Shown: piece by piece, positions 6,231 through 18,248 of the stretch | How the letters are laid out: each line of letters begins with the position of its first letter | Numbering within the stretch: position 1 is the first letter of the stretch | Assembly: GCA_902779165.1 (NCBI GenBank) | Contig: CACZAN010000022.1 | Coordinates: 1-52,389 of the forward strand | Length of the DNA: 52,389 nt | Source: an uncultured Bacteroidales bacterium | Lineage (GTDB): Bacteria; Bacteroidota; Bacteroidia; Bacteroidales; Bacteroidaceae | Reading direction: 5' to 3' | Made by a program: the position numbers and the translations under genes | The notes under the pieces: generated by a model | Databases searched by the model: none | Seen by the model: the letters and a program-made list of their open reading frames with translations, nothing else | Told to the model about the DNA's origin: nothing

Positions 6231-6758
6231 TTATCTTTTTAAGATTCGCTGCAGCAGACGTTTGTTTGATAATGCGATTACGACGGTGGCTTCCAGTAGT
6301 GGCCTTGACGTATCAATGCTCTTTTTTGTAAGTTCATCAATTGATGCATTTCCTACACTCGTCTTTTCAGATTTGTTTAACTGGACAGATATATGATAAA
6401 GCATAGTAGAGTCGGTCGTCATAGGAATTCGTTTAACCACACCTTTATAAACTCCCCATTCCATCCCTTTTACTTTGAGAGAAACGTTGGCTTCCATCCC
6501 TTCGCGCAAGTTCCTGACTTGTTCCGCAGACAATGGAATCGTCATCTCTATCCATGGGTTAGTAGAACTTGTAACTTCTATGTAGCCGTGAGCCGTCAGT
6601 GTGTCTGGACATTGTACAAACCACGAGGATACAAGCAGGCAGCCTACAATAACAGCAATCATAGTGATGCCCCATCTGAATACCCAAGATGGGGTTTGCC
6701 CCATCACAGCCTCCACTTCTTCACTGCGTTCTCGCAGCCCCTTTAACTCCGTTTCCAT
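6231..6758 (-). CDS. Short HlyD-like membrane fusion protein
   Basis: A 175-aa product. It has an N-terminal cytoplasmic stretch, one membrane helix (about residues 28-48, FRWGITMIAVIVGCLLVSSWF) and a periplasmic part opening with PDTLTAHGYIEVTSSTNPW, like HlyD/EmrA-type adaptors. The later segment MTIPLSAEQVRNLREGMEANVSLKVKG resembles the C-terminal beta domain of these adaptors. The lipoyl halves and the coiled-coil hairpin, which make the family 270-450 aa, are missing. It starts 3 bp after the exporter gene and is the last gene of the operon. It probably pairs the ABC exporter with an outer-membrane exit, but its short length means either reduced function or a specialised small adaptor. 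Confidence 0.7.
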   Translation of the reverse strand: METELKGLRERSEEVEAVMGQTPSWVFRWGITMIAVIVGCLLVSSWFVQCPDTLTAHGYIEVTSSTNPWIEMTIPLSAEQVRNLREGMEANVSLKVKGMEWGVYKGVVKRIPMTTDSTMLYHISVQLNKSEKTSVGNASIDELTKKSIDTSRPLLEATVVIALSNKRLLQRILKR

Positions 6759-6761
6759 TTT

Positions 6762-8981
6762 CTATTTTCCCAGTTCTAATTGATTCTTGACTAGATTAAA
6801 GTATACTCCTTTCAGAGCCGATAGTTCTTCATGCGTTCCTTGTTCTACGACCTTCCCTTTGTCGAGAACGATAATATTGTCAGCATCACAGACTGTGGAC
6901 AGGCGGTGGGCCACGATAACTACCGTACGCCCATGATAGAAATCATGCAAGCGTTCCATGATGATGCGCTCATTGTTGGCATCGAGTGCGTTGGTTGCCT
7001 CATCGAAGAATATATATTCAGGTTGCTTGTACACAGCCCTGGCTATGAGCAGACGCTGTCGTTGTCCCTGACTGATGCCGTTACCCTCCATGCCAATCTT
7101 GGTGCTGAACCCTAATGGCAGACTCTCTATGAAATCGCCGATATTAGCAACCACCACAGCATGACGCAGCCGCTTGGCATCCACATGGTCATCTGCTACG
7201 GCGATATTTTTTGTGATGGTGTCCGAAAAGATGAACCCGTCCTGCATCACGCAGCCAGTAGCTCTTCGCCACACATGAGGATTGATAAGTGTCAACGGAG
7301 TGTCGCCCACACGGATATGACCGCGCTGAGGATTGTAGAACCCCAGAAGTAATTTCACCAATGTCGTCTTGCCGCTACCACTGGATCCCACGATGGCTGT
7401 CACTTTACCTGCAGGAATTGTCAGCGACAAGTTTTCGAGTGCATAATCGCGGTCGGCGCCACTGTAGCTGAAAGTCAAATTTTCCACGCTGATATCACGC
7501 CGTGCTGGCAAATCACATAGTTGTCCTTCGGCTATCATCTCTTCATCTTCCTGCGCGTGCACTTCATTGAGGCGTTCAAGGCTGATTTTTGCATCCTGCA
7601 GACTTTGTGCGAAACCTATGAACTGGCTGATGGGGGCCGACACCTGTCCAATGATGTATGTGAGCGACATCATCATGCCTATCGTCATCATCCCCTCTAC
7701 AACAGATTTCGCGGCGATAAAGGAGATGATGATATGTGTTGTCTGTGTGAAGAACACCGACCCCACTTCCTGCACCTGCCCAATGGTCAGTCCCCTGACA
7801 CTGATGCGAAACAACTTAACCTGAATACGCTCCCATTCCCACCGTTTCTGCCGTTCGCAATTATTAAGTTTGATTTCCTGCATACCCTGTATGAGCTGAA
7901 TGATGTTGCTTTGTTCTGCTGCACTCTGGTTGAAACGGCGTATATCCAACTCACGGCGGTATTTCATGAACATAAGCACCCATGCCACATACAGTGAGTT
8001 GCCGAGTAGGAATATGGCGAGAATATTCCAGTTGTAATAGGCAAGTATCGCCCCGAAGACCACAAAGTTCGACAGCGAGAATAAAATGCTAATGGAGTTA
8101 CCCATCAAGAAAGCTTTGACGCGACTGTGGTCGCCGATGCGCTGCATAATGTCGCCCGTCTTCTTCGTGTCGAAGTACCGAAGTGGCAGCCGCATCAGCT
8201 TCATCAGGAAGTCAGAGATGAGGGCGATATCGATGCGGGCGTTCATGTGCAGCGTCACCCAACTGCGGATGAAGTTCACGACTAACTGCGCTATAAAAAA
8301 TCCTAACTGTGCCAGAAGCACCAAGGTGATGAACCCCAAGTTCCTGCCACCAATGCCCTGATCCACCATCGCCTGTGTCAGGAATGGAGCAAAGAGTTGC
8401 AGTACCATTCCCAAGGCCATACCGAGTACCAACTGTAGGAAAGCGCGGCGGTGCGGCAGCAGGTAGCGGGCGAAGAACAGCAGGTCGCGCTTCACGGATG
8501 CCTCCGGCTCGTCGTCGATGCGCTCGAAGTCCGGCGTGGGAGTCAGCAGCAGGGCCACGCCCAGGCGCTCTCCCCGCGATGATGTAGTGCTTCCCCAACA
8601 GCTAAGAAAATCCTTTTCAGAATAACGAACCAGCTGTGATGCGGGATCTGCTATGCAGAAGGTATGCCCTCCAGTTCGCCTGTTCTTTTTGATATCATAC
8701 AACACCACGAAGTGATTCTGATTCCAATGGAGAATGCAGGGCAGCGGTTGCTGTTCCACCAACTCCTCCACGGTGGTGCGTATACCAGTAGTTCTGAAGC
8801 CTATCGTCTCAGCCGCATCGGCGATGCCCAGCATCGATACACCCTCACGAGTGATGAAGCTCCGCTCTCGCAACGTTTCCAAGCGGTAGTGCTTGCCGTA
8901 GAAGCGGGCTACCATGCATAGGCACGCGGGGCCACAGTCCATGGAGTCGAGCTGGTGGGTGTGGGGGAAGGTCAAAGGCAT
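6762..8981 (-). CDS. Peptidase-containing ABC transporter (C39 domain), peptide exporter
   Basis: A 739-aa inner-membrane protein that cleaves double-glycine leaders and exports the peptide. Start 8981 is chosen because the C39 domain begins at once; an upstream start would overlap the barrel gene. C39 domain 1-130: catalytic Cys16 (DCGPAC), His90 (NQNHFVV), Asp112 (ADPASQ). Membrane domain about 150-450 with six helices. ATPase domain: Walker A GSSGSGKTT, signature ISQGQRQR (a variant of LSGGQ), Walker B IFFDEATNALD, switch His in VAHRLST. All key residues are present. It lies 19 bp downstream of the barrel gene and 3 bp upstream of the HlyD-like gene. The two precursors upstream in the operon carry matching GG leaders and are the obvious substrates. 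Confidence 0.93.
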   Translation of the reverse strand: MPLTFPHTHQLDSMDCGPACLCMVARFYGKHYRLETLRERSFITREGVSMLGIADAAETIGFRTTGIRTTVEELVEQQPLPCILHWNQNHFVVLYDIKKNRRTGGHTFCIADPASQLVRYSEKDFLSCWGSTTSSRGERLGVALLLTPTPDFERIDDEPEASVKRDLLFFARYLLPHRRAFLQLVLGMALGMVLQLFAPFLTQAMVDQGIGGRNLGFITLVLLAQLGFFIAQLVVNFIRSWVTLHMNARIDIALISDFLMKLMRLPLRYFDTKKTGDIMQRIGDHSRVKAFLMGNSISILFSLSNFVVFGAILAYYNWNILAIFLLGNSLYVAWVLMFMKYRRELDIRRFNQSAAEQSNIIQLIQGMQEIKLNNCERQKRWEWERIQVKLFRISVRGLTIGQVQEVGSVFFTQTTHIIISFIAAKSVVEGMMTIGMMMSLTYIIGQVSAPISQFIGFAQSLQDAKISLERLNEVHAQEDEEMIAEGQLCDLPARRDISVENLTFSYSGADRDYALENLSLTIPAGKVTAIVGSSGSGKTTLVKLLLGFYNPQRGHIRVGDTPLTLINPHVWRRATGCVMQDGFIFSDTITKNIAVADDHVDAKRLRHAVVVANIGDFIESLPLGFSTKIGMEGNGISQGQRQRLLIARAVYKQPEYIFFDEATNALDANNERIIMERLHDFYHGRTVVIVAHRLSTVCDADNIIVLDKGKVVEQGTHEELSALKGVYFNLVKNQLELGK

Positions 8982-9000
8982 GAACTTGGAATGAAAGAAA

Positions 9001-11598
9001 TCACTTTGGCAATAGGTTAAATCTATATTGCACATGTAGCATACAATAAAAAGGGCGAGTATCTCTCCATGTTTCTGACCATCCAAAGGCTCCTCCTCCC
9101 ATACTTGTTGAGGTTTGCTGCTGAAGAAGATCTTTTGCCTCAAACTGGAAACTCCATTTAGCAGAAAGGTCGTAGTTTATGCTGGCATCCCAAATAACAT
9201 AACATCTGTTTAGTTTTGCATTTGATGCTCCTTGATTAGAGCCCAACACACAATCTGTTGATAGAGAGAAACCCTTAAATGAGGGCGTTCTCAACCCGAT
9301 GCCACATTGTAAATAGCAATAGTTCAAATTACTGAAGTTGTTTTGTATACTTCTTGTGTGTCGCCACTGATATTCTCCAAAAAAATTTATGATCCACCCC
9401 CCTTTTTTGTATGACAGATCAATTTTCCCGACAGAATATAGCCTATGTGCAGAATACAACTTCTGTTCAGAGGAATTGGTGTCAAATTCATTATCATTAG
9501 ATATAATGAAATGTAAATTTGTATCTATGTGCCAATTTTGCTTGGTCCCTAATATCTGATTATATCGCCCCCTTAAACTAAAATCCCAGTCACCGTCAAC
9601 ATTTCTCGTCTGGCTTGTTATTACACCCGTTTCTGGATCTGAGTAGAACATCCTTTTGATTGCATTCTTGTGTATTTGAATATCTGAATGCAAGTTTAAC
9701 ATTGCTTGTTTTCCAAGCCTCGTAGAATATGCTATAGAAGGATTGTGAGTATAGGATCTTCGTAGTTCGCTGTTCCCCTTTTTAATGAATAATGGGTCGG
9801 AATCATCTGTTCGGCTAATCAAATCCTGCATGGCAGGTAGGTCGGTCTTAAGGTTATATCCAAAAGAGAGCCCTTTCATATTGAAGGATATATTAGGGTT
9901 CAATATCCATTCTGATCTATGTAGGTTGACGTGTGACTGATATCTCAGATCCGAAGTCCATTGGTACAGATATTCTATTGGGAGTCCGAGTGCAAGTCCA
10001 ACACTACTGTTAAAGTTGTATGATACATTCGCGTTTACAGTCTGCCTGCATTTTCGCTCCTCCGAGATATAGCTGTTGTTCAAATCCATAAGAGATTTTG
10101 TTTTCGTATTGTCAGGAAAGCCCCAAACAAATTCGGGAACAGAGCCCATGGCTTGCTCAAGATTATATAACCAATTCTCACGATTCTCATCATTCCACTC
10201 AGAGCGGTAATTAAGCATTAATTCACCTCTTCTATTCTCTGAGGCAAAGGTCCATGCCATATATTTTAAATCAATACTCAGGTTTGTTGTACCAGTTGAG
10301 GACATGTCATGCTGCTTTCTCCGGTCGTTTTCGTGTGCTATTCTGAAATAATTGACATTGTTCTCATCATCGCCTACTTTTTTATTTGATGAGTAGTTGG
10401 CTATTATTGTAACATATAGTGGGGTACGAAACGAGGCGGGTCTGATTGTTGATTTGCCTACAAGACTCAATTCCAATCCTTTTATCTGCCATATTTTCTC
10501 TATAGCCTGACTGTTTATCAGATTAGAATCCTTGATTAAACTGTCTTCAATACTGTATATACGATTTAATATAGAAGTGATGTCGCCTTTTGGGATATCA
10601 CTGAATGAGGCCTTTAGCAGGTGAGTCCTATCTTTGTTCCTAGATAGTTTCACAATAGGCTTGATATCTATCGTAAAGTATTTGGCGGGAAAGAACAAAT
10701 TACCGGACCATTCAGCACTTATCTTTTTTTTTGAAGCTTTAGTGGCCGAAACTGTATATAGATTTCTATTTGTCAGGTAGCTCATGTCAGAGTGTTCTAC
10801 CATGATATCCTGCTGCGATCCGACAATCTTGAACATTCCATTGAGTGTCAGTTTATTCTCCGTATTTGTATATGTATAATCTGCACCGCCTATTTCAAGG
10901 CTTTGTGTACCGATATTATCTGCATGATTTTTCCAGGCTCCCTTGCTTTGAGGTCGTCCCAGATCGTTAATATTGTTTACACCTAAATATCCGGAAAGGC
11001 TTTGGCGTGGATTGTAATGCAACCCGAATAGTCGCTTAAGGAACAGATATTTGGTCTCACCTTTAGTCGGTAATCCGTCTGCAGATTCTACATTTGCAAT
11101 GATACCATCCTGATATTTTGCTTTCAGTTTCACATCCATGACAAGAGGATCGGTATCCAATGCTTTACGGCCCTTGTCCTCTCGCGACAAATAAGCATCA
11201 CGGGGAACCCGACGGTATACTTTGACTTTGTTTACTGTAAAGGCGGGCAGGTTTTTCAAGGCAATGGTCGGGTCGCCATGAAAAAAATCACGTCCCTCAA
11301 TCAACAAGGATGACACAGGCTCACCTTTTACTATAATAAGTCCATCTGCATTTATTTCAGTGTTTGGGAGATTGTTTATCAATGCATCCAACATGGCTCC
11401 AGCAGAAAGGCGCAGGGCATCGGCGTTATAGACCATCGTGTCGCCCCTTTGGACCATCAGGATTCTTGAGGCCTTTATCTTGACCTCTTTCATGGTAGTC
11501 TCCTTTTCAATGACGGCGATTGAATCTGTCTGCCCCTTCACCATAAGGGGAAGAAGAAGAAACAGCATACCAATACATGTCCTTATTTGATAATTCAT
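9001..11598 (-). CDS. Outer-membrane beta-barrel protein (TonB-receptor-like)
   Basis: An 865-aa product with a signal peptide (about 1-24, ending KGQ). A short plug-like region follows (KIKASRILMVQRGDTMVYNADALRLSAGAMLDALINNLP), as in outer-membrane proteins related to TonB receptors. The rest is a long series of amphipathic strands rich in Tyr, Asn and Ser and ends VQYRFNLLPK, a typical barrel closure with aromatic residues. The start ATG overlaps the stop of precursor 2 (TGATG), so it is translationally coupled to the peptide. Its place between precursors and exporter suggests it is the outer-membrane outlet or a receptor/immunity partner for the peptide. Noticeably AT-rich compared with the oxidase and LanC-like genes. 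Confidence 0.8.
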   Translation of the reverse strand: MNYQIRTCIGMLFLLLPLMVKGQTDSIAVIEKETTMKEVKIKASRILMVQRGDTMVYNADALRLSAGAMLDALINNLPNTEINADGLIIVKGEPVSSLLIEGRDFFHGDPTIALKNLPAFTVNKVKVYRRVPRDAYLSREDKGRKALDTDPLVMDVKLKAKYQDGIIANVESADGLPTKGETKYLFLKRLFGLHYNPRQSLSGYLGVNNINDLGRPQSKGAWKNHADNIGTQSLEIGGADYTYTNTENKLTLNGMFKIVGSQQDIMVEHSDMSYLTNRNLYTVSATKASKKKISAEWSGNLFFPAKYFTIDIKPIVKLSRNKDRTHLLKASFSDIPKGDITSILNRIYSIEDSLIKDSNLINSQAIEKIWQIKGLELSLVGKSTIRPASFRTPLYVTIIANYSSNKKVGDDENNVNYFRIAHENDRRKQHDMSSTGTTNLSIDLKYMAWTFASENRRGELMLNYRSEWNDENRENWLYNLEQAMGSVPEFVWGFPDNTKTKSLMDLNNSYISEERKCRQTVNANVSYNFNSSVGLALGLPIEYLYQWTSDLRYQSHVNLHRSEWILNPNISFNMKGLSFGYNLKTDLPAMQDLISRTDDSDPLFIKKGNSELRRSYTHNPSIAYSTRLGKQAMLNLHSDIQIHKNAIKRMFYSDPETGVITSQTRNVDGDWDFSLRGRYNQILGTKQNWHIDTNLHFIISNDNEFDTNSSEQKLYSAHRLYSVGKIDLSYKKGGWIINFFGEYQWRHTRSIQNNFSNLNYCYLQCGIGLRTPSFKGFSLSTDCVLGSNQGASNAKLNRCYVIWDASINYDLSAKWSFQFEAKDLLQQQTSTSMGGGAFGWSETWRDTRPFYCMLHVQYRFNLLPK

Positions 11599-11870
11599 CA
11601 AAACTCTCCAGATGCATTATAATGCACAAGATATCGAATACAATTGGATTTAGAAGAGCAGAGATTTGTACAAGCCTGAACGCACAATGATACAGAACTA
11701 GCGTTTTGAAATGTAGCTTTTTCAGTAGCTGTCAGTGGAATGGATACCGTTCCGCCATTCCCGTTTGACTGCCTAAGGTCACAGTCACATTCGTGGATTA
11801 TGGTTGTTCCACCGATAACTGCTTTTAGTTCATCATTAGAAAGAAACTGGTTTAATTTAATAGCTTTCAT
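11598..11870 (-). CDS. Double-glycine precursor peptide 2 (six-Cys core)
   Basis: A 90-aa precursor. The leader MKAIKLNQFLSNDELKAVIGG (residues 1-21) follows the double-glycine pattern (LS..EL..I.GG) cut by C39 peptidases. The core of 69 aa starts TTIIHECDCD. Six Cys are arranged CxC, then a loop of 32 residues, then CX3CX3CX5C. The last Cys is followed by (I/V)xYxxxYN, as in precursor 1. The loop is rich in Ser, Thr, Asn and Gly and could accept a sugar. The even Cys count and the oxidase in the operon point to three disulfides. Likely an exported bacteriocin or signalling peptide. Confidence 0.85.
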   Translation of the reverse strand: MKAIKLNQFLSNDELKAVIGGTTIIHECDCDLRQSNGNGGTVSIPLTATEKATFQNASSVSLCVQACTNLCSSKSNCIRYLVHYNASGEF

Positions 11871-11891
11871 ACTATAATAATATTTATAGTG

Positions 11892-12167
11892 TTAAACAAT
11901 TATATCGTCTTCAAAATTGTATTTCATTTCATAATGCACACAATAATATTCCCCTGAACATGCACTCCTACATATGCCAACACATGTTTGTTCACTCAGG
12001 AGCCCTGAATCTGTTCCAGATGTCTCAACGGAATCTATGTAGTCCCTATTAAAATTGTAAAGATAGCAAATGCAGGTAATGATGCTGCTTCCGCCTTTAA
12101 TCTCTTTTAACTCACGACGGCTCAAAAAGGTCGTTCTTTTAGTTGTCTTTAAATGAATCTTTTTCAT
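11892..12167 (-). CDS. Double-glycine precursor peptide 1 (six-Cys core)
   Basis: A 91-aa precursor from ATG 12167. The leader runs to GG at residues 25-26 (FLSRRELKEIKGG). The core of 65 aa begins SSIITCICYLYNFNR. Six Cys fall as CxC, loop of 27, CX3CX3CX5C, the same spacing as the neighbour 22 bp downstream, although the residues between differ. The tail CVHYEMKYNFEDD shares the C(I/V)xYxxxYN motif. The two peptides therefore arose by duplication and divergence and may act as a two-component pair or as variants. Located directly after the glycosyltransferase gene. Confidence 0.85.
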   Translation of the reverse strand: MKKIHLKTTKRTTFLSRRELKEIKGGSSIITCICYLYNFNRDYIDSVETSGTDSGLLSEQTCVGICRSACSGEYYCVHYEMKYNFEDDIIV

Positions 12168-12206
12168 CAAATCTAAGTTTTTATATTTTTAATGTGAATT
12201 GGATCT

Positions 12207-13433
12207 CTATAAATTATACGAATTTATCAAAGACAGATAGTTGTCTTTCATTTTTATTATGCTGTATATATCTTCAAATTTCTTTTTTGAAACTTTTTGC
12301 ATAAGTGCCCTTTTATTTTTCTGAAGGCATAGCGCTTCTTTTATTCTTTTTAAAAGTTCTACGCTGAATAAACTGAAACTGCCTTGTATTGCCGCAATGA
12401 GAGCTACATCATTATCAAACATATCTTTCATGTTATGCCCATCGGATGCTATTATAGTTTTTCCGTGTGCCAGCATCTCGATTCCAAAGTAACTGCACTG
12501 TTCAGTATAGGAAGGTAACACACACACATCTGCCACTTGATACCATTTTTCCATTTCTTCTTCTGGGATCAATCCTGTATATACAATATGTGAGCAACTA
12601 CATTTCGTAATTCTAGCATAATCATTTAACATGAAAACTTGTCCAGCTATGACTAAGCGAATGTCTTTATACTTTTTGTATGCAGATTCAAAAGCCATCA
12701 GTAAAGGAATAATACCTTTAGACTCCACGGTCCTACCTGCATATAAAAATACGTTTTCATCTTTTCCTATGCCTAATTCCATTCTTAGACGGGCAAGTTC
12801 TTTCTCTGATAATAGTTGCGATTCTACCTTTCTTCCATTTGGAATCAAATGAATCTTCGAGCTTTTAACATGGTAAATATCCTCCAGTATTCGTTTTGTC
12901 TGTTCTGCCAAGGATACGACATCATCTACAATAGAATACATCTTGCATTCTTCACGATAGTATCGACGTATGAATTGCCATTTCTGAATCATATCTTTGG
13001 GAATATGCCGAACTGATATGACTTTTTTGAACAAATCCACATCCCCTAAAAGAGGAGCACACCAACCTTGATCGTGAATTACAAAGATAATTCTTGACAA
13101 AGGAAATTGTTTTTTTATTGTTTTCAAGAATTGTACGCAAGGAGAATGATTGACGAAAAATACATTGTCCTTATTGTCAGAGAGGTATAATCTGAGTATT
13201 GAGATCGATAAGGCCCCATTTTGCAGAAACCCATGATTACCACAAATGGGGAAATGATACTCCGTATAGAATGATGACCTTTCTACTTTAAATTCTTTCT
13301 CATCGGAATTGAACGAAAGCAGATTCACGTCATGCTCACTTCCTTCAAAGCAATTCAGCAATTGTTGGATATAAGTTCCTACACCATTCTGTTTGGAACT
13401 CTGATGCTCGTCGATAATATAGATATGTTTCAT
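12207..13433 (-). CDS. GT4-family glycosyltransferase
   Basis: About 408 aa, start ATG 13433 (a TTG 12 bp upstream is the only longer option). GT-B fold with N-terminal domain (HIYIIDEHQSSKQNGVGTYIQQLL) and C-terminal nucleotide-sugar domain: IPNGRKV, FLYAGRTVESKGI, VCVLPSYTEQCSYFGIEMLAHG. The last contains the E-X7-E motif of retaining GT4 enzymes (E-QCSYFGI-E). It is cytoplasmic, without membrane segments. From memory, related transferases are found beside GG-leader peptide loci in Bacteroidota. Position directly before the two precursor genes suggests that it glycosylates them, or builds a glycan for them; this is inference. The gene is clearly AT-rich, unlike the LanC-like gene it adjoins. 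Confidence 0.85.
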   Translation of the reverse strand: MKHIYIIDEHQSSKQNGVGTYIQQLLNCFEGSEHDVNLLSFNSDEKEFKVERSSFYTEYHFPICGNHGFLQNGALSISILRLYLSDNKDNVFFVNHSPCVQFLKTIKKQFPLSRIIFVIHDQGWCAPLLGDVDLFKKVISVRHIPKDMIQKWQFIRRYYREECKMYSIVDDVVSLAEQTKRILEDIYHVKSSKIHLIPNGRKVESQLLSEKELARLRMELGIGKDENVFLYAGRTVESKGIIPLLMAFESAYKKYKDIRLVIAGQVFMLNDYARITKCSCSHIVYTGLIPEEEMEKWYQVADVCVLPSYTEQCSYFGIEMLAHGKTIIASDGHNMKDMFDNDVALIAAIQGSFSLFSVELLKRIKEALCLQKNKRALMQKVSKKKFEDIYSIIKMKDNYLSLINSYNL

Positions 13434-13445
13434 TGGGGGGTGCAA

Positions 13446-14114
13446 TCAGATAAGGGTGAATAATTTTCCGGCCAAGCCTTTGCGAAGTCCTAATTCGGGT
13501 GTGTTCAACTTCGGATGTTGAACAATGAGGTGAGCAAGGTCAAATTGGTAGTCGGCAGGCTGCCCCTGAACCATTGTCATGAAGGTCTTGCACAGGTCAC
13601 GCAGCGGTGAACTTTCATTTTGCATTAGAAGGTGCCGGCAGACCTGAGCACAGTCTTGCAGATATTTCGCATCAAAGACTTGCCTGCCACTTCTTTGCGC
13701 CCCTTGCAGGTGGGCTACGATGTAATGCAGCCATCCTTCCAGTCCCTTTTCCAGGCTGAGGTCTGTCTGCCGCAGGATATTCTGCTGCATCAACTTCTGG
13801 TCGATGGCGGCACAGATGTCTGCCCCTTGCCCGCGCTGGAACTGATTCTGCAACAGGTATTCCACGCCCCAACCGATGCCTGTCAGGCCGTTGGCGAAGT
13901 CCAGGGGCATCTCTGTGGACAGGTTATCGAGTACCTGATCCAGAAGGAAATTGATGGCTATCTTCAGGGGACGTAGCTTGCGGGCACGGGCATACTCCGA
14001 GAGAGCGAGGACGATGCCCATCTGACCTTCGAAGAGTCCGCGGGCAGGGACGTCGTTGGCATGGAGCACCACTTGGTGCAGCAGTAGTTGTTCTTGGGTG
14101 AAAGTATGTTCCAT
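13446..14114 (-). CDS. Half-length LanC-like protein
   Basis: A 222-aa product. Gly-rich helix-turn signatures of the LanC (lanthionine cyclase) alpha-toroid are visible: GLFEGQMGIVLALSEYAR (about 26-43), FANGLTGIGWGVEYLL (about 84-99) and KGLEGWLHYIVAHL. Full LanC proteins are about 400 aa. The zinc ligands (Cys, then a Cys-His pair) lie in the C-terminal half and are not seen here: no GWCYG or CHG motif exists. No LanB or LanM dehydratase is in the cluster. The protein may bind leader or core peptide as a scaffold or be a degraded cyclase. It begins 14 bp after the oxidase gene, and its stop is within 13 bp of the glycosyltransferase start. Confidence 0.7.
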   Translation of the reverse strand: MEHTFTQEQLLLHQVVLHANDVPARGLFEGQMGIVLALSEYARARKLRPLKIAINFLLDQVLDNLSTEMPLDFANGLTGIGWGVEYLLQNQFQRGQGADICAAIDQKLMQQNILRQTDLSLEKGLEGWLHYIVAHLQGAQRSGRQVFDAKYLQDCAQVCRHLLMQNESSPLRDLCKTFMTMVQGQPADYQFDLAHLIVQHPKLNTPELGLRKGLAGKLFTLI

Positions 14115-14128
14115 AGTACTTGTTCGTA

Positions 14129-15697
14129 TTATTCTTCAATTTTCAGCAGGTCGATGAAATCTTCTATTTGATATTCCCTGGGCAATCGGCGGTTATTGAC
14201 CAGCAGGGTGGGTGTAGCACTCAGTTCAGTCTGTTCCCGCCATTGCGTGTGTCGGCGGTATTCTTCAGCGACCTCCTCCGAATCGGCATCCAAACCGAGT
14301 CCATCGAAGAATGCCTCCTGCCGCGATTTGCCGCCGGCATACCACTCTTTATAGAGCTGCCATGTGCGTGCGGCTCCAAGTTGCAGATAGGCGGCCACCA
14401 TCAGCCGACTAACGCGCTCGTAGTCAGAACCGAAGGAGGTGAATACGAATTCGATGCTGCAGTCTTGATGGATGAGCCCGTGCAAGCGGCGGTGCATGGC
14501 AGCACAGGGATTGCAATAGGGATTGGTGAGCACGGTCAGTCGATAGCGTGCATCAGGGTTGCCAAAGCGGATGCAGGAATCTGCAGATATCTCATAAAGA
14601 GGCTCATTCTGGAGCAGGAACTCGAAGACTTCTTCTCGGAGTTTGAGGTTACGATAGCTGTATTTCCATAGCATGGCCTGTCGCGCTCGGGCAATGACGG
14701 GAAGTGCCAGATGTAGGCACAGGGTGGCGGCGAAGTAGGAAGACAGGAGGAAGAGGATCCGCACTAGTGCTTCCCAATGGAAGATAGAGTCAAATGAACA
14801 GACCTTACACCTCAAGGAAACGAGATATACGAGGGCTTGCACGATGAAGACGGCTTGCACCAGCAGACACAGCGGACACCAGACATGAGCGCGGAAGCGC
14901 TGGTACCATAAACTCCACGCAGAGTAGCCGACTGCGCCAAAAGAGAGCAGGGCAAGCATGGGCTGGGCGGTTGGCATGAAAAGGAGTACGAGAGCGTTCA
15001 CTCCGAAATAGGCCGTGCCTACCTCGCTCCAGCTGATGCCGAAGGCGACCTTGGAGGCTGAAGTATCGAGAAGGTCGATGCAAGTGGAATGCTTCAGTAA
15101 GTTGCAGAGGCGGTCAGCGGTGCTACTGGCTATCTTCAGCTGGCGCAGCAGGAGCAGATAGCAGACGTAGAGACCAAGTACATTCAGGATGATCAGGCCA
15201 GGAGTGAAGAGTGAAAAATGGGGAGCACGCAGGAAGAGGCAGCATACTAACCCTAATGCGATACCACCTGCGGCTCCCCATGCCTTCAGGCGTTGAATCC
15301 GTTCTGCATGGCGGTGCTCCTTGAAGTCGGGTTCACCGGCTTCACCGCTGGGATTCACCAGCAGGGCAACACCGCTCCAGATGCTCAGGAACTGCTCGTG
15401 CGGCACACGGACATCCTCACCATACCAGCGGTATGTGACGTCCTCGTCAGTGATACGGATGACGAGTGCCAGGTCACCTGAGACCTGTGCCACGAAAGGT
15501 GAGCCGAGTTCAGCCAGTGCAGCTTCCTTGTCATCGAAACGCATACCGCGGTTGTCGACCCCGTAGTCAGAGAGCATCATAGACAACCCATAGAGCGTAT
15601 GTTTATAAGGATGCTCGTCGAACGTGCGGTTGGTGTACGTCCGTGTATGTGGAATGTGTAATTCCTCACAGAGTTGCAGAAACAGATTCTTGGCCAT
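14129..15697 (-). CDS. Pseudo-C39 / VKOR / DsbA-like fusion, peptide disulfide oxidase
   Basis: A 522-aa membrane protein. Residues 1-115 resemble a C39 peptidase fold (HTLYGLSMMLSDYGVDN, LGSPFVAQV, EQFLSIWSGVALLV) but lack the catalytic CGP. Residues 135-335 are a vitamin K epoxide reductase-like bundle with loop cysteines C198 and C206 and the active pair CPLC (274-277). Residues 380-522 are a thioredoxin/DsbA-like domain with CNPC (395-398) and the cis-Pro motif ATPT. Such fusions pass electrons from substrate thiols through the thioredoxin domain to VKOR and quinone. Here it would form disulfides in the six-Cys peptides; the pseudo-peptidase domain may recognise their GG leaders. Both statements are inferences from the operon. 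Confidence 0.85.
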   Translation of the reverse strand: MAKNLFLQLCEELHIPHTRTYTNRTFDEHPYKHTLYGLSMMLSDYGVDNRGMRFDDKEAALAELGSPFVAQVSGDLALVIRITDEDVTYRWYGEDVRVPHEQFLSIWSGVALLVNPSGEAGEPDFKEHRHAERIQRLKAWGAAGGIALGLVCCLFLRAPHFSLFTPGLIILNVLGLYVCYLLLLRQLKIASSTADRLCNLLKHSTCIDLLDTSASKVAFGISWSEVGTAYFGVNALVLLFMPTAQPMLALLSFGAVGYSAWSLWYQRFRAHVWCPLCLLVQAVFIVQALVYLVSLRCKVCSFDSIFHWEALVRILFLLSSYFAATLCLHLALPVIARARQAMLWKYSYRNLKLREEVFEFLLQNEPLYEISADSCIRFGNPDARYRLTVLTNPYCNPCAAMHRRLHGLIHQDCSIEFVFTSFGSDYERVSRLMVAAYLQLGAARTWQLYKEWYAGGKSRQEAFFDGLGLDADSEEVAEEYRRHTQWREQTELSATPTLLVNNRRLPREYQIEDFIDLLKIEE

Positions 15698-15736
15698 TAC
15701 GTGCGTACCTTAATTTATATAGGCTGGACGTAAGTC

Positions 15737-16099
15737 CTATAGCAGGATTTCCGTATAGAAGCAGTAGTTGCCACTGATGATTTGTAGCTCATAATTGCCA
15801 CTCAGCGATGATGGTAGGTCAAGGCTGGAACTGGAGATTGGGATGATGGTGGAGTAAACGACCACACCATCACCATCGACCACACGCAGTTCGCAACCAT
15901 CGCACGGAGTATTAAAATACAAGGTGTAATCCTCGATGCCAATGACTGGGGGCAGAACGGGTGTACGATGCCCACCATCATTGTTTATTGGATCCTCGAT
16001 TCTGACCTGTAAGTTGAGGATGATAGGCTCAGCCTGCAGTTGTTGCAGTGGCAACATCGTTGCCAGTGCTAAAGTGAGAAGGAAATGTTTCTTTGTCAT
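15737..16099 (-). CDS. Small periplasmic DUF3244-like protein
   Basis: A 120-aa product with a signal peptide (MTKKHFLLTLALATMLPLQQLQAEP). The mature part is an all-beta, Ig-like domain with the features of DUF3244 (PPVIGIEDYTLYFNTPCDGCELRVVDGDGVVVYSTII, SGNYELQIISGNYCFYTEIL). Such proteins are frequent near peptide and regulator genes of Bacteroidota, role unknown. It is the first gene after the TPR regulator, 39 bp before the oxidase gene. A -7 box TAATTTTG (16136-16129, minus strand) lies about 30 nt above the start, so it probably opens the peptide operon. Confidence 0.75.
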   Translation of the reverse strand: MTKKHFLLTLALATMLPLQQLQAEPIILNLQVRIEDPINNDGGHRTPVLPPVIGIEDYTLYFNTPCDGCELRVVDGDGVVVYSTIIPISSSSLDLPSSLSGNYELQIISGNYCFYTEILL

Positions 16100-16331: not shown

Positions 16332-18248
16332 TTATGATAGGATGCCGTACCTCCGTTCTAAATTCCTGAAGAGGGTGCGGGCCGACTTGTCTTTGAAAAG
16401 GGACTGGTTGATGTCGGACTTGTAGTTGGATACTGCGGTGTCGCCGACATTCAGGAAATGGGCGATGTCGCTTTCACGCAGTTTGATAATAACCAGGATG
16501 CATGTGTAGATACCCTTCTCGTTGATAGTCGGCACTTGATGTAGGTCGGAGAGCAGGGCCGGGTAGGACTTCCCGAATTCCAGCATGAGCGAATCCCATT
16601 CAGCTTTCAGCAGTTCATATCTTGATTTCCCTGCGAGGTATTGGATTCTGCGGACAATGTTTGTTTCTTGGAAGGCTCTTGCTGCTGCCAGACTATCTGT
16701 GACACCTGTCTTCTGCTGCAGGTCTTCTATCTTGGATTTCATGCGTTCGATCTCCTCTTGATGCATCTTGACGCGCTCTTCATACGTTCTTTGAAGTTCC
16801 ATCCGACGGTGTAGTGACTCTTCGTACTTGGCCCTATACAATTCAGAGTCATCTTGCGATGACTTCAATTCGCCTTGAATGAGTTCTATGACTTGCTGAT
16901 GGGCGCTCTCTAACAGGTTGAGGGTATCAATCTCCTTCAGGTATGCTGCTTTGGCCTCTTCGAGTTCCCGACGTGTCCGTTCTAATTCCTGCTGCTTGAG
17001 CAGACGGCGTTTGCGGAAGAACAGAACTATCCATATCGCTATTAAAAGGAGGAGTATGGCCAGGGCAATTAAGAATGTCATCCAGTTTTGCGCCTTTGCA
17101 GCTCTTGCTTTCTGCCTGAAAGCTTCCTTCTGTATTCGGCTGTAGTTATAGCTGGCGTGCATCTGGGTGATGAGTTCGCGGTCCCGCGTTGCCACAGACG
17201 AGTCGTTCGCCTGACAATAAAATAAGGTGTACTTGACGATGGAGTCAACATCCCCTTTTTTCCGAAAGACATCCAGAAGACCGTGGTACATGGCATCCTG
17301 ATGGGTGTATCTCATACCTGGATAGTACATCTTTCGATAAGCTTGTTCTGCCGAATCAAGTTTGCCTATAACCTCATAGTACTTTCCTAAATAACGATAG
17401 AACATTCGTTCTTTATATGGAAGAGTACCCTCTGATGTGAATTGACCTGATGTTGTTGTGTAGAGATCTAAAACGGCTTTTGTCTCTTTCAATCGCACAG
17501 GAGGAAGCAAGTACAGATGTGCCATGGGCAGCGATACAATGGCCCATTCTTTTTTATAGCCATGCTGAAGGTACATCGCCCTGGCCTTCATGAAGATTGC
17601 TTCTGCCGAATCGTTCTTGCCTTGCATCATATAGTCGGCAGTCATCTGCGTCAGGTCGTAGAGTGCATTCAGGGTATCTCCAATTAAGAAGGAATAATGG
17701 GCGGATTTTTGGCGGCTCTCAATGGCATCGGTCAGAGCCAGCTGCTGGTTGAAGAGGTAAGCCATCTGCGAGTAGATGCAGCTGAGGGTCTTGAAGTCAC
17801 AATCCGCGGACAACGTATCGGCACAGTCTATGGCATCCTGATAGCAGGCGATGGCTTGGGGCGTTTCTTTCAAATCCCGATAGACGCACCCTAAGAGGTA
17901 ATGGGCCAACATCCGTTCGTTAGGATTCCCCGTCTTGTCATAATAGGCAACGACAGATGTCATGATGGAATCGGACGTGAAATCAACCCACGTCTTGTTC
18001 ATTACCTCCGCTTTCAGGAGCTGAAAGCGCATTCGTTGTGCTTTGCTGAAGGTGGCTGCCTGAGCTTCGGACTCGTTAATCAGGGACGCTGCGGCGTAGG
18101 CAGAGTCCGAATCCAATAGCTGTTGGATGCGAGCCAACATTGAATCCGTGGCATTGCCATGACGGCATCCCGTCAGGCACACCACTATCATTAGCGCACT
18201 CGCAAGGCAATAGCTCAGTTTCGTATAGTTCTTTCTCTTTGTTGTCAT
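16332..18248 (-). CDS. TPR membrane-anchored regulator with C-terminal helix-turn-helix
   Basis: A 638-aa product. N-terminal lipoprotein-like signal (CLTGC). Then about 350 residues of TPR-like helices (YLLGCVYRDLKETPQAIACYQDAI, YRYLGKYYEVIGKLDSAEQAYRKMY). One membrane helix near residue 390 (MTFLIALAILLLLIAIWIVL) is followed by a long coiled coil and a C-terminal winged/LuxR-like segment (TCILVIIKLRESDIAHFLNVGDTAVSNYKSDINQS). This architecture is common in Bacteroidota as a one-protein sensor that carries DNA-binding function at the cytoplasmic end. Its place directly upstream of the peptide operon on the same strand suggests control of that operon. It starts 30 bp after the symporter stop, in the zone where the island joins the chromosome. 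Confidence 0.75.
   Translation of the reverse strand: MTTKRKNYTKLSYCLASALMIVVCLTGCRHGNATDSMLARIQQLLDSDSAYAAASLINESEAQAATFSKAQRMRFQLLKAEVMNKTWVDFTSDSIMTSVVAYYDKTGNPNERMLAHYLLGCVYRDLKETPQAIACYQDAIDCADTLSADCDFKTLSCIYSQMAYLFNQQLALTDAIESRQKSAHYSFLIGDTLNALYDLTQMTADYMMQGKNDSAEAIFMKARAMYLQHGYKKEWAIVSLPMAHLYLLPPVRLKETKAVLDLYTTTSGQFTSEGTLPYKERMFYRYLGKYYEVIGKLDSAEQAYRKMYYPGMRYTHQDAMYHGLLDVFRKKGDVDSIVKYTLFYCQANDSSVATRDRELITQMHASYNYSRIQKEAFRQKARAAKAQNWMTFLIALAILLLLIAIWIVLFFRKRRLLKQQELERTRRELEEAKAAYLKEIDTLNLLESAHQQVIELIQGELKSSQDDSELYRAKYEESLHRRMELQRTYEERVKMHQEEIERMKSKIEDLQQKTGVTDSLAAARAFQETNIVRRIQYLAGKSRYELLKAEWDSLMLEFGKSYPALLSDLHQVPTINEKGIYTCILVIIKLRESDIAHFLNVGDTAVSNYKSDINQSLFKDKSARTLFRNLERRYGILS

Follow-up and report, generated by a model that had tools for sequence, protein, structure and literature searches.

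A recurrent Bacteroidales gene cluster for six-cysteine double-glycine peptides, with a predicted cytosol-facing oxidase and a half-LanC protein

Where would a bacterium make the disulfide bonds of a cysteine-rich peptide that it exports? This question is raised by nine genes on the minus strand (6231..16099) of a 52,389-nucleotide stretch of DNA, hereafter the window, from an uncultured, rumen-type gut bacterium of the Bacteroidales (GenBank assembly GCA_902779165.1, contig CACZAN010000022.1, which is number 22 of a genome with 86% completeness). The disulfides of exported peptides are normally formed outside the cytosol, which is also where the bacterial DsbA and VKOR partners ordinarily work. 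The thiol oxidase of this cluster, named H here, is predicted to have its redox sites on the cytosolic side; if confirmed, an oxidase acting on peptides in the cytosol would represent a new enzyme arrangement.

The initial annotation of this DNA proposed nine adjacent genes forming a peptide pathway with precursors, thiol oxidase, glycosyltransferase (GT), C39 exporter and envelope partners. All nine genes are present and tightly packed, in the order I, H, G, F, E, D, C, B and A from the promoter side (Table 1), and the gene set supports a pathway of that kind. The cluster is real and recurrent, and it is a variant of the clusters for bacteriocins and for ribosomally synthesised and post-translationally modified peptides (RiPPs) that brings two testable proposals: a cytosol-facing oxidase that holds the leader, and a half-LanC protein (G) acting as partner of a GT. 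Taken as a whole it is probably a RiPP/bacteriocin-type pathway, in which H would oxidise the leader-held precursor in the cytosol, F and G would add a sugar and a C39 exporter would carry the product out.

The oxidase H and its orientation in the membrane

The protein H consists of a C39-like domain (residues ~1-118), an extra transmembrane (TM) helix (~138-153), a VKOR unit (~166-332) and a thioredoxin domain. Pfam recognises the VKOR (PF07884, E 1.6e-13) and thioredoxin parts; the four-helix VKOR unit has both the loop cysteine pair (C198, C206) and the CxxC (C274, C277) of this family, and the thioredoxin domain carries a CxPC (C395, C398). These six cysteines are invariant in alignment A1, which holds 17 of the 33 oxidase matches of the family search, the remainder being fragments, sequences broken by internal stops (G120, G152, G184 and one of G221) and full-length proteins of greater distance. 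The thioredoxin domain resembles DsbA/BdbD-like proteins both in Foldseek and in profile comparison. No separate thioredoxin pair is found among the nine genes, H being a single membrane fusion, and a second VKOR-domain match was not found in the genome of the window at E <= 0.001.

The N-terminal domain and the charges of the membrane loops had been missed by the initial annotation. In hhalign the first ~118 residues match 14 exporter C39 domains (97.9%, P 4.8e-13), and a profile of the H family finds the exporter PCAT1 (E 1.1e-6) with a match that spans 57-178 and extends beyond the peptidase domain. In a Foldseek search with the AlphaFold2 (AF2) model of H (pLDDT 86), PCAT1 chains are ranked first; the superposition of whole chains is poor, and the isolated PCAT1 peptidase domain (7n87) fits with E 1.2e-4, a TM-score of 0.56 of the target and rmsd 4.2 (112 columns). 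The fold is thus kept, with the catalytic-His segment of C39 falling in a gap and the catalytic-Cys segment unaligned, and therefore the N-terminal domain of H is read as protease-dead.

The extra hydrophobic helix is additional to the VKOR unit and stands before it. From loop to loop along A1, ten residues contain on average 1.71, 0.55, 1.18, 0.11, 2.18, 0.32 and 1.64 Lys plus Arg (K+R), the positive values falling in the N-terminal domain, in the VKOR cysteine loop and on the sides of the CxxC and of thioredoxin. As a control, VKORs without an N-terminal extension were taken from a search of the phylum (matches in 26 of 118 genomes), in which 28 of 29 proteins, all except L210, had a usable CxxC: 16 canonical, several of them near-identical, and 12 N-terminally extended. 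The canonical Bacteroidota VKORs have mean K+R of 3.25 in the TM2-3 loop, 0.31 before the CxxC and 2.44 after TM4, that is, an active-site side poor in K and R. In the oxidases of A1 the same stretches give 0.06, 2.18 and 0.59, so that the family of H does not have the canonical charge pattern, and the order is likewise reversed in all six proteins examined among the more distant full-length relatives. Related to this, a scan of named genomes with the oxidase confirmed 303 relatives, and the 80 best loci were analysed further; 76 oxidases drawn from them (L124, L153, L155 and L161 have no open reading frame, ORF, above 450 aa) give 0.07, 2.51 and 0.41, with the highest value before the CxxC in 74 of 76. 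Since several of these loci belong to the same genomes as in A1 and L131 and L132 are near-identical, these counts are not independent. For the 12 VKORs with an N-terminal extension from the phylum search, the means are 0.50, 2.17 and 0.58.

With loop charges reversed in this way, the positive-inside rule leads to the prediction that the VKOR and thioredoxin redox sites of H face the cytosol. Variation in VKOR topology is not without precedent: according to the title of a 2017 article by Hibender et al., a VKOR of Aeropyrum pernix is said to act in two compartments, in a system which is archaeal and reportedly has neither a C39 domain nor a peptide cluster.

VKOR-thioredoxin relatives are also present in L115 (9531-11291) and L117 (8580-10474), beside double-glycine (GG) peptides with a twin CxxxC, identified by eye, and two ABC transporters. 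The charge order of these oxidases is likewise reversed, and their peptides apparently form a different family.

The half-LanC protein and its glycosyltransferase partners

The protein G had been described as a LanC-like half protein without a dehydratase. The half domain stands, and describing it as GT-associated fits better than describing it as a cyclase. The AF2 model of G (pLDDT 91.7) finds LanCL1, NisC and LanKC enzymes as best Foldseek matches, with E no lower than 5e-3. A profile of 22 hand-picked half-LanC sequences (A2) aligns with residues 29-174 of NisC at E 0.0057, within a range of profile E values of 0.0014-0.0057; the zinc ligands of NisC, which we take to be at 284, 330 and 331, lie outside this segment, and so the zinc-site half of LanC is missing from G. 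No Cys or His is invariant in the 22 sequences, and neither zinc ligands nor a full cyclase domain can be recognised in G. No dehydratase (LanB, LanM or the kinase-lyase part of LanKC) was found among the ten genes scanned, the rest of the genome being outside this search.

The partners of this half domain are near-constant. C-terminal half-LanC domains are found on GT4 enzymes (L058, L061), on GT2 enzymes (for example L061, L062, L069, L070 and L075) and on a DUF707 protein (L069). In 35 loci selected by LanC (15 neighbourhoods from the genus and 20 from the family, a subset of all matches) there are 38 LanC ORFs: 14 are fused to a GT (11 GT2, 2 GT4, 1 DUF707), a further 21 have one at a distance of less than 400 bases (18 GT4, 2 GT7-like, 1 GT2), and 3 have no close GT, namely L063 (at a contig end), the first copy of L065, and L071. 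Of the other long ORFs in the same loci only 16 of 203 are so placed, as are 4 of 24 C39 ABC proteins and 6 of 27 outer-membrane proteins (OMPs). GTs were called with single-sequence seeds from these loci on stop-to-stop ORFs, the seed for GT7-like enzymes being one Pfam-confirmed protein (L022). The 80 loci selected by the oxidase also hold 38 LanC ORFs, 5 of them fused and 27 adjacent to a GT (32 of 38 together); the six with neither include L150 and L151, which share one contig. Pfam finds a GT domain in all of eight LanC-matching ORFs and LANC_like in seven, four of which pass the cut-off, and a further ORF combines DUF707 with a LANC_like match above the cut-off.

Given this near-constant fusion or adjacency, G is best read as a partner of the GT, and the simplest reading of these sequences is that it would bind the substrate for peptide glycosyltransferases, or act as their scaffold, and would not be a lanthionine cyclase. 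As for the enzyme itself, F matches Glycos_transf_1/GT4 models, and Glycos_transf_2 is not among its matches. The GT of glycocins is of the SunS type, from the GT2 family, whereas F is a GT4 enzyme.

In L026 (7990-11725) and, with a similar layout, in L062, L064 and L067, a GT2-half-LanC fusion is followed by a protein of ~437-444 aa, near an OMP; the protein of L026 is a radical SAM enzyme.

Precursors and recurrence of the cluster

In both precursors, D and E, all six cysteines lie after the GG leader, for which the TIGR04149 matches (17.4 and 16.5 bits) are below the threshold of 25. The family pattern is CxC...CxxxCxxxCx5C, with a last spacer of x11 in one of the eight hand-picked precursors of alignment A3, where identity to E is 25-37% and the invariant positions are leader positions and four cysteines only. 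The L020 precursor is the sole member with four cysteines, and it has lost the first and the third together, as a bonded pair would be lost, which suggests that C1 and C3 pair.

Peptides were accepted in the 80 oxidase loci when they showed a GG-leader pattern and at least two cysteines, or matched D or E directly. There are 66 of them, 65 on the strand of the oxidase and 63 with an even cysteine count (six in 38, four in 20, eight in 4 and two in 1; odd in 3). They comprise 64 distinct cores, of which 61 are even in cysteine, and once the five direct matches to D and E are removed the figures become 60/61 on the same strand and 58/61 even. Ser-Gly repeats were considered as a glycosylation signature and rejected: the cores hold 62 against 32.2 expected in clusters with a GT and 32 against 18.8 expected where no GT was detected, so the enrichment is not specific to GT-containing clusters.

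The initial annotation expected the precursors to be conserved with the oxidase and the exporter, and the three do co-occur in loci of other genomes. Counting its own genome, the half-LanC query has matches in 14 of 139 genomes of the genus and 41 of 301 of the family, and the oxidase query in 27 of 301 of the family. Close orthologues of G (52-90% identity) are accompanied by the surrounding cluster, as far as the contigs reach, in five other genomes of the genus (L017-L021); the L020 cluster has one precursor, and in L017 none was detected before the contig end. By their titles the 80 named loci are mostly from Bacteroidales, with strains of Bacteroides fragilis and Parabacteroides distasonis among them, and a few are from Sphingobacteriales; where a title reads Paenibacillus or Oscillospiraceae, for example, the entry is a metagenome bin and may be mis-assigned. 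Among the best 80 out of 303, the nearest match to the oxidase is the uncultured Bacteroidales metagenome-assembled genome (MAG) RUG11694, with 81% identity, and several of the next-best matches are ruminant-gut MAGs by title.

A GG cysteine peptide is found in 47 of the 80 loci, a GT in 41, a C39 ABC protein in 38, a LanC domain in 33 (29 of them also with a GT), an OMP in 22 and an HlyD protein in 21. All of these are lower bounds, because contigs, many of them short, come to an end and seeds were few. The parts of the cluster turn up repeatedly across Bacteroidota and behave as modules: the oxidase is combined with LanC-GT4 in the window, with a GT25-like/methyltransferase protein in L108 and L122, with LanC-GT4 plus a GT7-like enzyme in L022, L193 and L195, and with the exporter and no detected GT in L158, L170 and L172. 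In L108 (7179-9176) and L122 (4017) the GT25-like and methyltransferase protein takes the place of LanC-GT4 beside six-cysteine precursors of the D/E family, the GT25 match of the L108 protein being just below the cut-off.

The oxidase of L018 (9229-9534) is reduced to its C-terminal end beside an open half-LanC gene and GT4, which suggests that it has been lost in that locus; the idea that this piece was a free-standing N-terminal domain was dropped, since the sequence is that of the C-terminal end. In L021 (2567-4162; G120) and in L114 (G152) one TAG interrupts the oxidase frame, which may reflect error, decay or recoding.

Alternative readings, related systems and remaining genes

The steps that we propose would be as follows. 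The precursors E and D would be made as ribosomal peptides with a GG leader, which the protease-dead C39-like domain of H would hold in the cytosol. The extra helix would turn the VKOR unit round, bringing the VKOR and thioredoxin cysteines to the cytosolic side, where H would make three disulfides in the core and pass the electrons to the quinone pool. The sugar would be added by F in the cytosol, where the nucleotide sugars are, with G as peptide-binding partner, and B would finally cleave after GG and export the finished peptide via A and C. Because the exporter cleaves the leader off on the cytosolic side, a core carries it before export and not after, and a protease-dead C39 domain fused to redox domains that face the cytosol would fit a leader-holding device. 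It is possible, and proposed more tentatively, that H represents a new RiPP maturase class: a disulfide synthetase guided by the leader and working in the cytosol (dead C39 plus inverted VKOR), modular with half-LanC peptide GTs and widespread in Bacteroidota, with relatives in B. fragilis and P. distasonis.

Several observations weigh against these proposals. The peptide, the sugar and the disulfides are predicted here from genes; the limits of the loops were drawn by eye on the basis of the model and of hydropathy, and the positive-inside charge is itself a prediction. Strict reversal is seen in only 8 of the 12 extended VKORs of the phylum, L217 being a tie, L224 and L225 flat (1/1/1) and L213 canonical. 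No VKOR is among the 50 Foldseek matches shown for H, whose VKOR identity rests on Pfam, and the matches of G to LanC are weak both in Foldseek (none below 0.001) and in the profile comparison. Besides, 39 of the 80 oxidase loci have no detected GT and 47 no detected LanC, so the sugar may not be universal; the close six-cysteine precursor pair of L108 goes with another modifying protein in place of LanC-GT4, and the Ser-Gly enrichment is shared by clusters without a detected GT.

The main alternative for the chemistry is that H keeps the ordinary orientation, with VKOR, thioredoxin and C39-like domains in the periplasm and the peptides oxidised after export. The usual extracytosolic location of DsbA/VKOR partners, the likeness of the thioredoxin domain to DsbA/BdbD and the four extended VKORs that are not strictly reversed all speak for it; it is nevertheless considered unlikely, given the loop charges reversed with respect to the 16 canonical VKORs, the extra helix ahead of the VKOR unit, an N-terminal domain with no signal visible by eye, and the fact that the homologue of this domain is cytosolic in exporters, the PCAT1 match continuing past the peptidase domain. 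In another scheme F and G would act on a different target (some partner protein, or a glycan of the cell surface), leaving as product a disulfide-bonded, sugar-free six-cysteine relative of the bacteroidetocins. Loci such as L158, L170 and L172, with oxidase, GG peptide and exporter and no detected GT, are consistent with this, as is the sufficiency of a four-gene bacteroidetocin region in E. coli (PMC6671954). The place of F and G in the tightly packed operon, flanked by oxidase and precursors, together with the recurrence of GT4, GT2, GT7-like or GT25-like enzymes in these loci, makes it quite unlikely. That G makes or assists thioether (lanthionine) rings is highly improbable and was rejected: the LanC fold and the weak sequence match are set against a half domain corresponding to the N-terminal part of NisC, the lack of any invariant Cys or His ligand, the missing dehydratase in the ten genes scanned and the near-constant GT partners. 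A further alternative concerns the role and not the chemistry, the product being a pheromone-like signal sensed via the tetratricopeptide repeat (TPR) protein J instead of a bacteriocin. J recurs beside these clusters and putative signalling proteins follow the BGC5 precursors in a 2023 survey (PMC10352776), whereas the nearest characterised peptides, the bacteroidetocins, kill (PMC6671954) and the eight aligned precursors diverge from E as strongly as weapons do; a signalling role is considered somewhat unlikely.

The closest known counterparts of the pathway we favour are the bacteroidetocins, class IIf bacteriocins of Bacteroidota, whose regions encode a GG peptide, a C39-type ABC exporter and, for the most part, a thiol oxidoreductase (PMC6671954). 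The window cluster shares with them the short GG leader, the cysteine peptide, the dedicated oxidoreductase and the exporter. Deletion of the oxidoreductase weakens bacteroidetocin activity, which is counted as a precedent for our reading. However, bacteroidetocins A and B have four cysteines in 42 aa whereas the cores here have six in 65 and 69 aa, the four-gene region includes a 5-TM protein that is not seen by inspection among the nine genes (compared by description), and neither GT nor half-LanC is mentioned in the excerpt (PMC6671954). Glycocins had been offered as an analogy, and here the logic holds and the membership does not. Three-disulfide glycocins of Gram-positive bacteria such as thermoglycocin have six cysteines, as in the window, and likewise rely on a GT, a C39 exporter and a pair of thioredoxin-like proteins (PMC12457901), and the window cluster does have a C39 exporter and a GG leader at which cleavage is predicted. 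On the other hand, the thioredoxin-like pair is separate in glycocins and replaced by one fusion here, their bonds are nested (Cys7-30/14-23, with CX6C) whereas the spacing in D and E is different, and in thermoglycocin the leader lacks a GG and cleavage occurs at GK (PMC12457901).

The initial annotation knew of no described system with this set. Such a description was not found in the titles and abstract starts of the open-licence papers searched, which does not imply its absence from print; the combination of GG peptide, oxidoreductase and exporter is already known from the bacteroidetocins (PMC6671954), and radical SAM, LanC-like and GT genes are listed together in the Bacteroidales gene clusters BGC3-5 (PMC10352776). 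The latter share with the window LanC-like proteins without zinc motifs, a GT (BGC3) and GG precursors. They differ in carrying a radical SAM enzyme, and 'VKOR' and 'vitamin K' are absent from the main text; their authors place the LanC-like proteins nearer to endoglucanases, whereas here they appear as GT partners (PMC10352776). A scan of ten genes showed no radical SAM enzyme, the partner that a TIGR04149 RiPP system would have, although the GG leader and the GT of the window are related to the TIGR04149/TIGR04157 natural-product system, both matches being below the curated cut-offs. In the excerpt of a phylogeny of the VKOR family the words C39, peptidase, Bacteroid- and inverted are absent (PMC4555120).

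If the proposed orientation of H is true, RiPP biology would gain a type of reaction, the dedicated oxidation of a held precursor in the cytosol, and bacteria a tool for oxidative folding. It would also help to account for the production of cysteine-rich peptides by anaerobic gut bacteria like Bacteroides, said to be without general disulfide machinery (PMC6671954). For LanC-like genes which surveys of genomes mark as lanthipeptide cyclases although no dehydratase accompanies them, the link between half-LanC and GT offers a function that can be tested.

Table 1. Genes of the cluster and adjoining gene in the window, listed from the promoter side, with the upstream neighbour last
Gene and product	Position	Strand	Evidence
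I, DUF3244-like protein, 120 aa	15737..16099	-	Pfam 23.4 bits vs cut-off 25, E 6.2e-5; synteny
H, oxidase (VKOR + thioredoxin), 522 aa	14129..15697	-	Pfam, alignment A1, hhalign, AF2, Foldseek, charge analysis
G, half-LanC protein, 222 aa	13446..14114	-	LanC Pfam E 0.0058, below cut-off; AF2, Foldseek, profile
F, GT4 glycosyltransferase, 412 aa	12207..13433	-	TIGR04157-like, 287 bits vs cut-off 400
E, precursor, GG leader 26 aa + core 65 aa, six Cys	11892..12167	-	Sequence; homologues in L019, L020, L108, L122
D, precursor, GG leader 21 aa + core 69 aa, six Cys, pattern as in E	11598..11870	-	Sequence
C, outer-membrane barrel, ~865 aa, candidate outer-membrane exit	9001..11598	-	OMP_b-brl_3 via homologues
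B, peptidase C39/ABC exporter, predicted leader protease and exporter	6762..8981	-	C39 E 3.3e-31, ABC domains
A, short HlyD-like membrane-fusion adaptor, 175 aa	6231..6758	-	Homologues only
J, TPR membrane protein adjoining the cluster upstream, candidate sensor	16332..18248	-	Pfam; recurrent neighbour

Start codons were set by eye for E (12167), F (~13433), C (11598) and B (~8981), and the start of C overlaps the stop of D. The barrel C has no Pfam match of its own, OMP_b-brl_3 being matched in three of four scanned homologues, and the adaptor A matches no family above the cut-off. HlyD_3 is matched by two of its homologues of ~440 aa, a length found in several other clusters, whereas the L020 homologue has 178 aa; A thus seems to be without most of a normal HlyD protein. 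The protein I is a candidate for an accessory or immunity function. An anti-phage defence reading was discarded, four submitted cluster genes giving no PADLOC match. The TPR protein J, which may be a sensor, lies beside these clusters on either strand.

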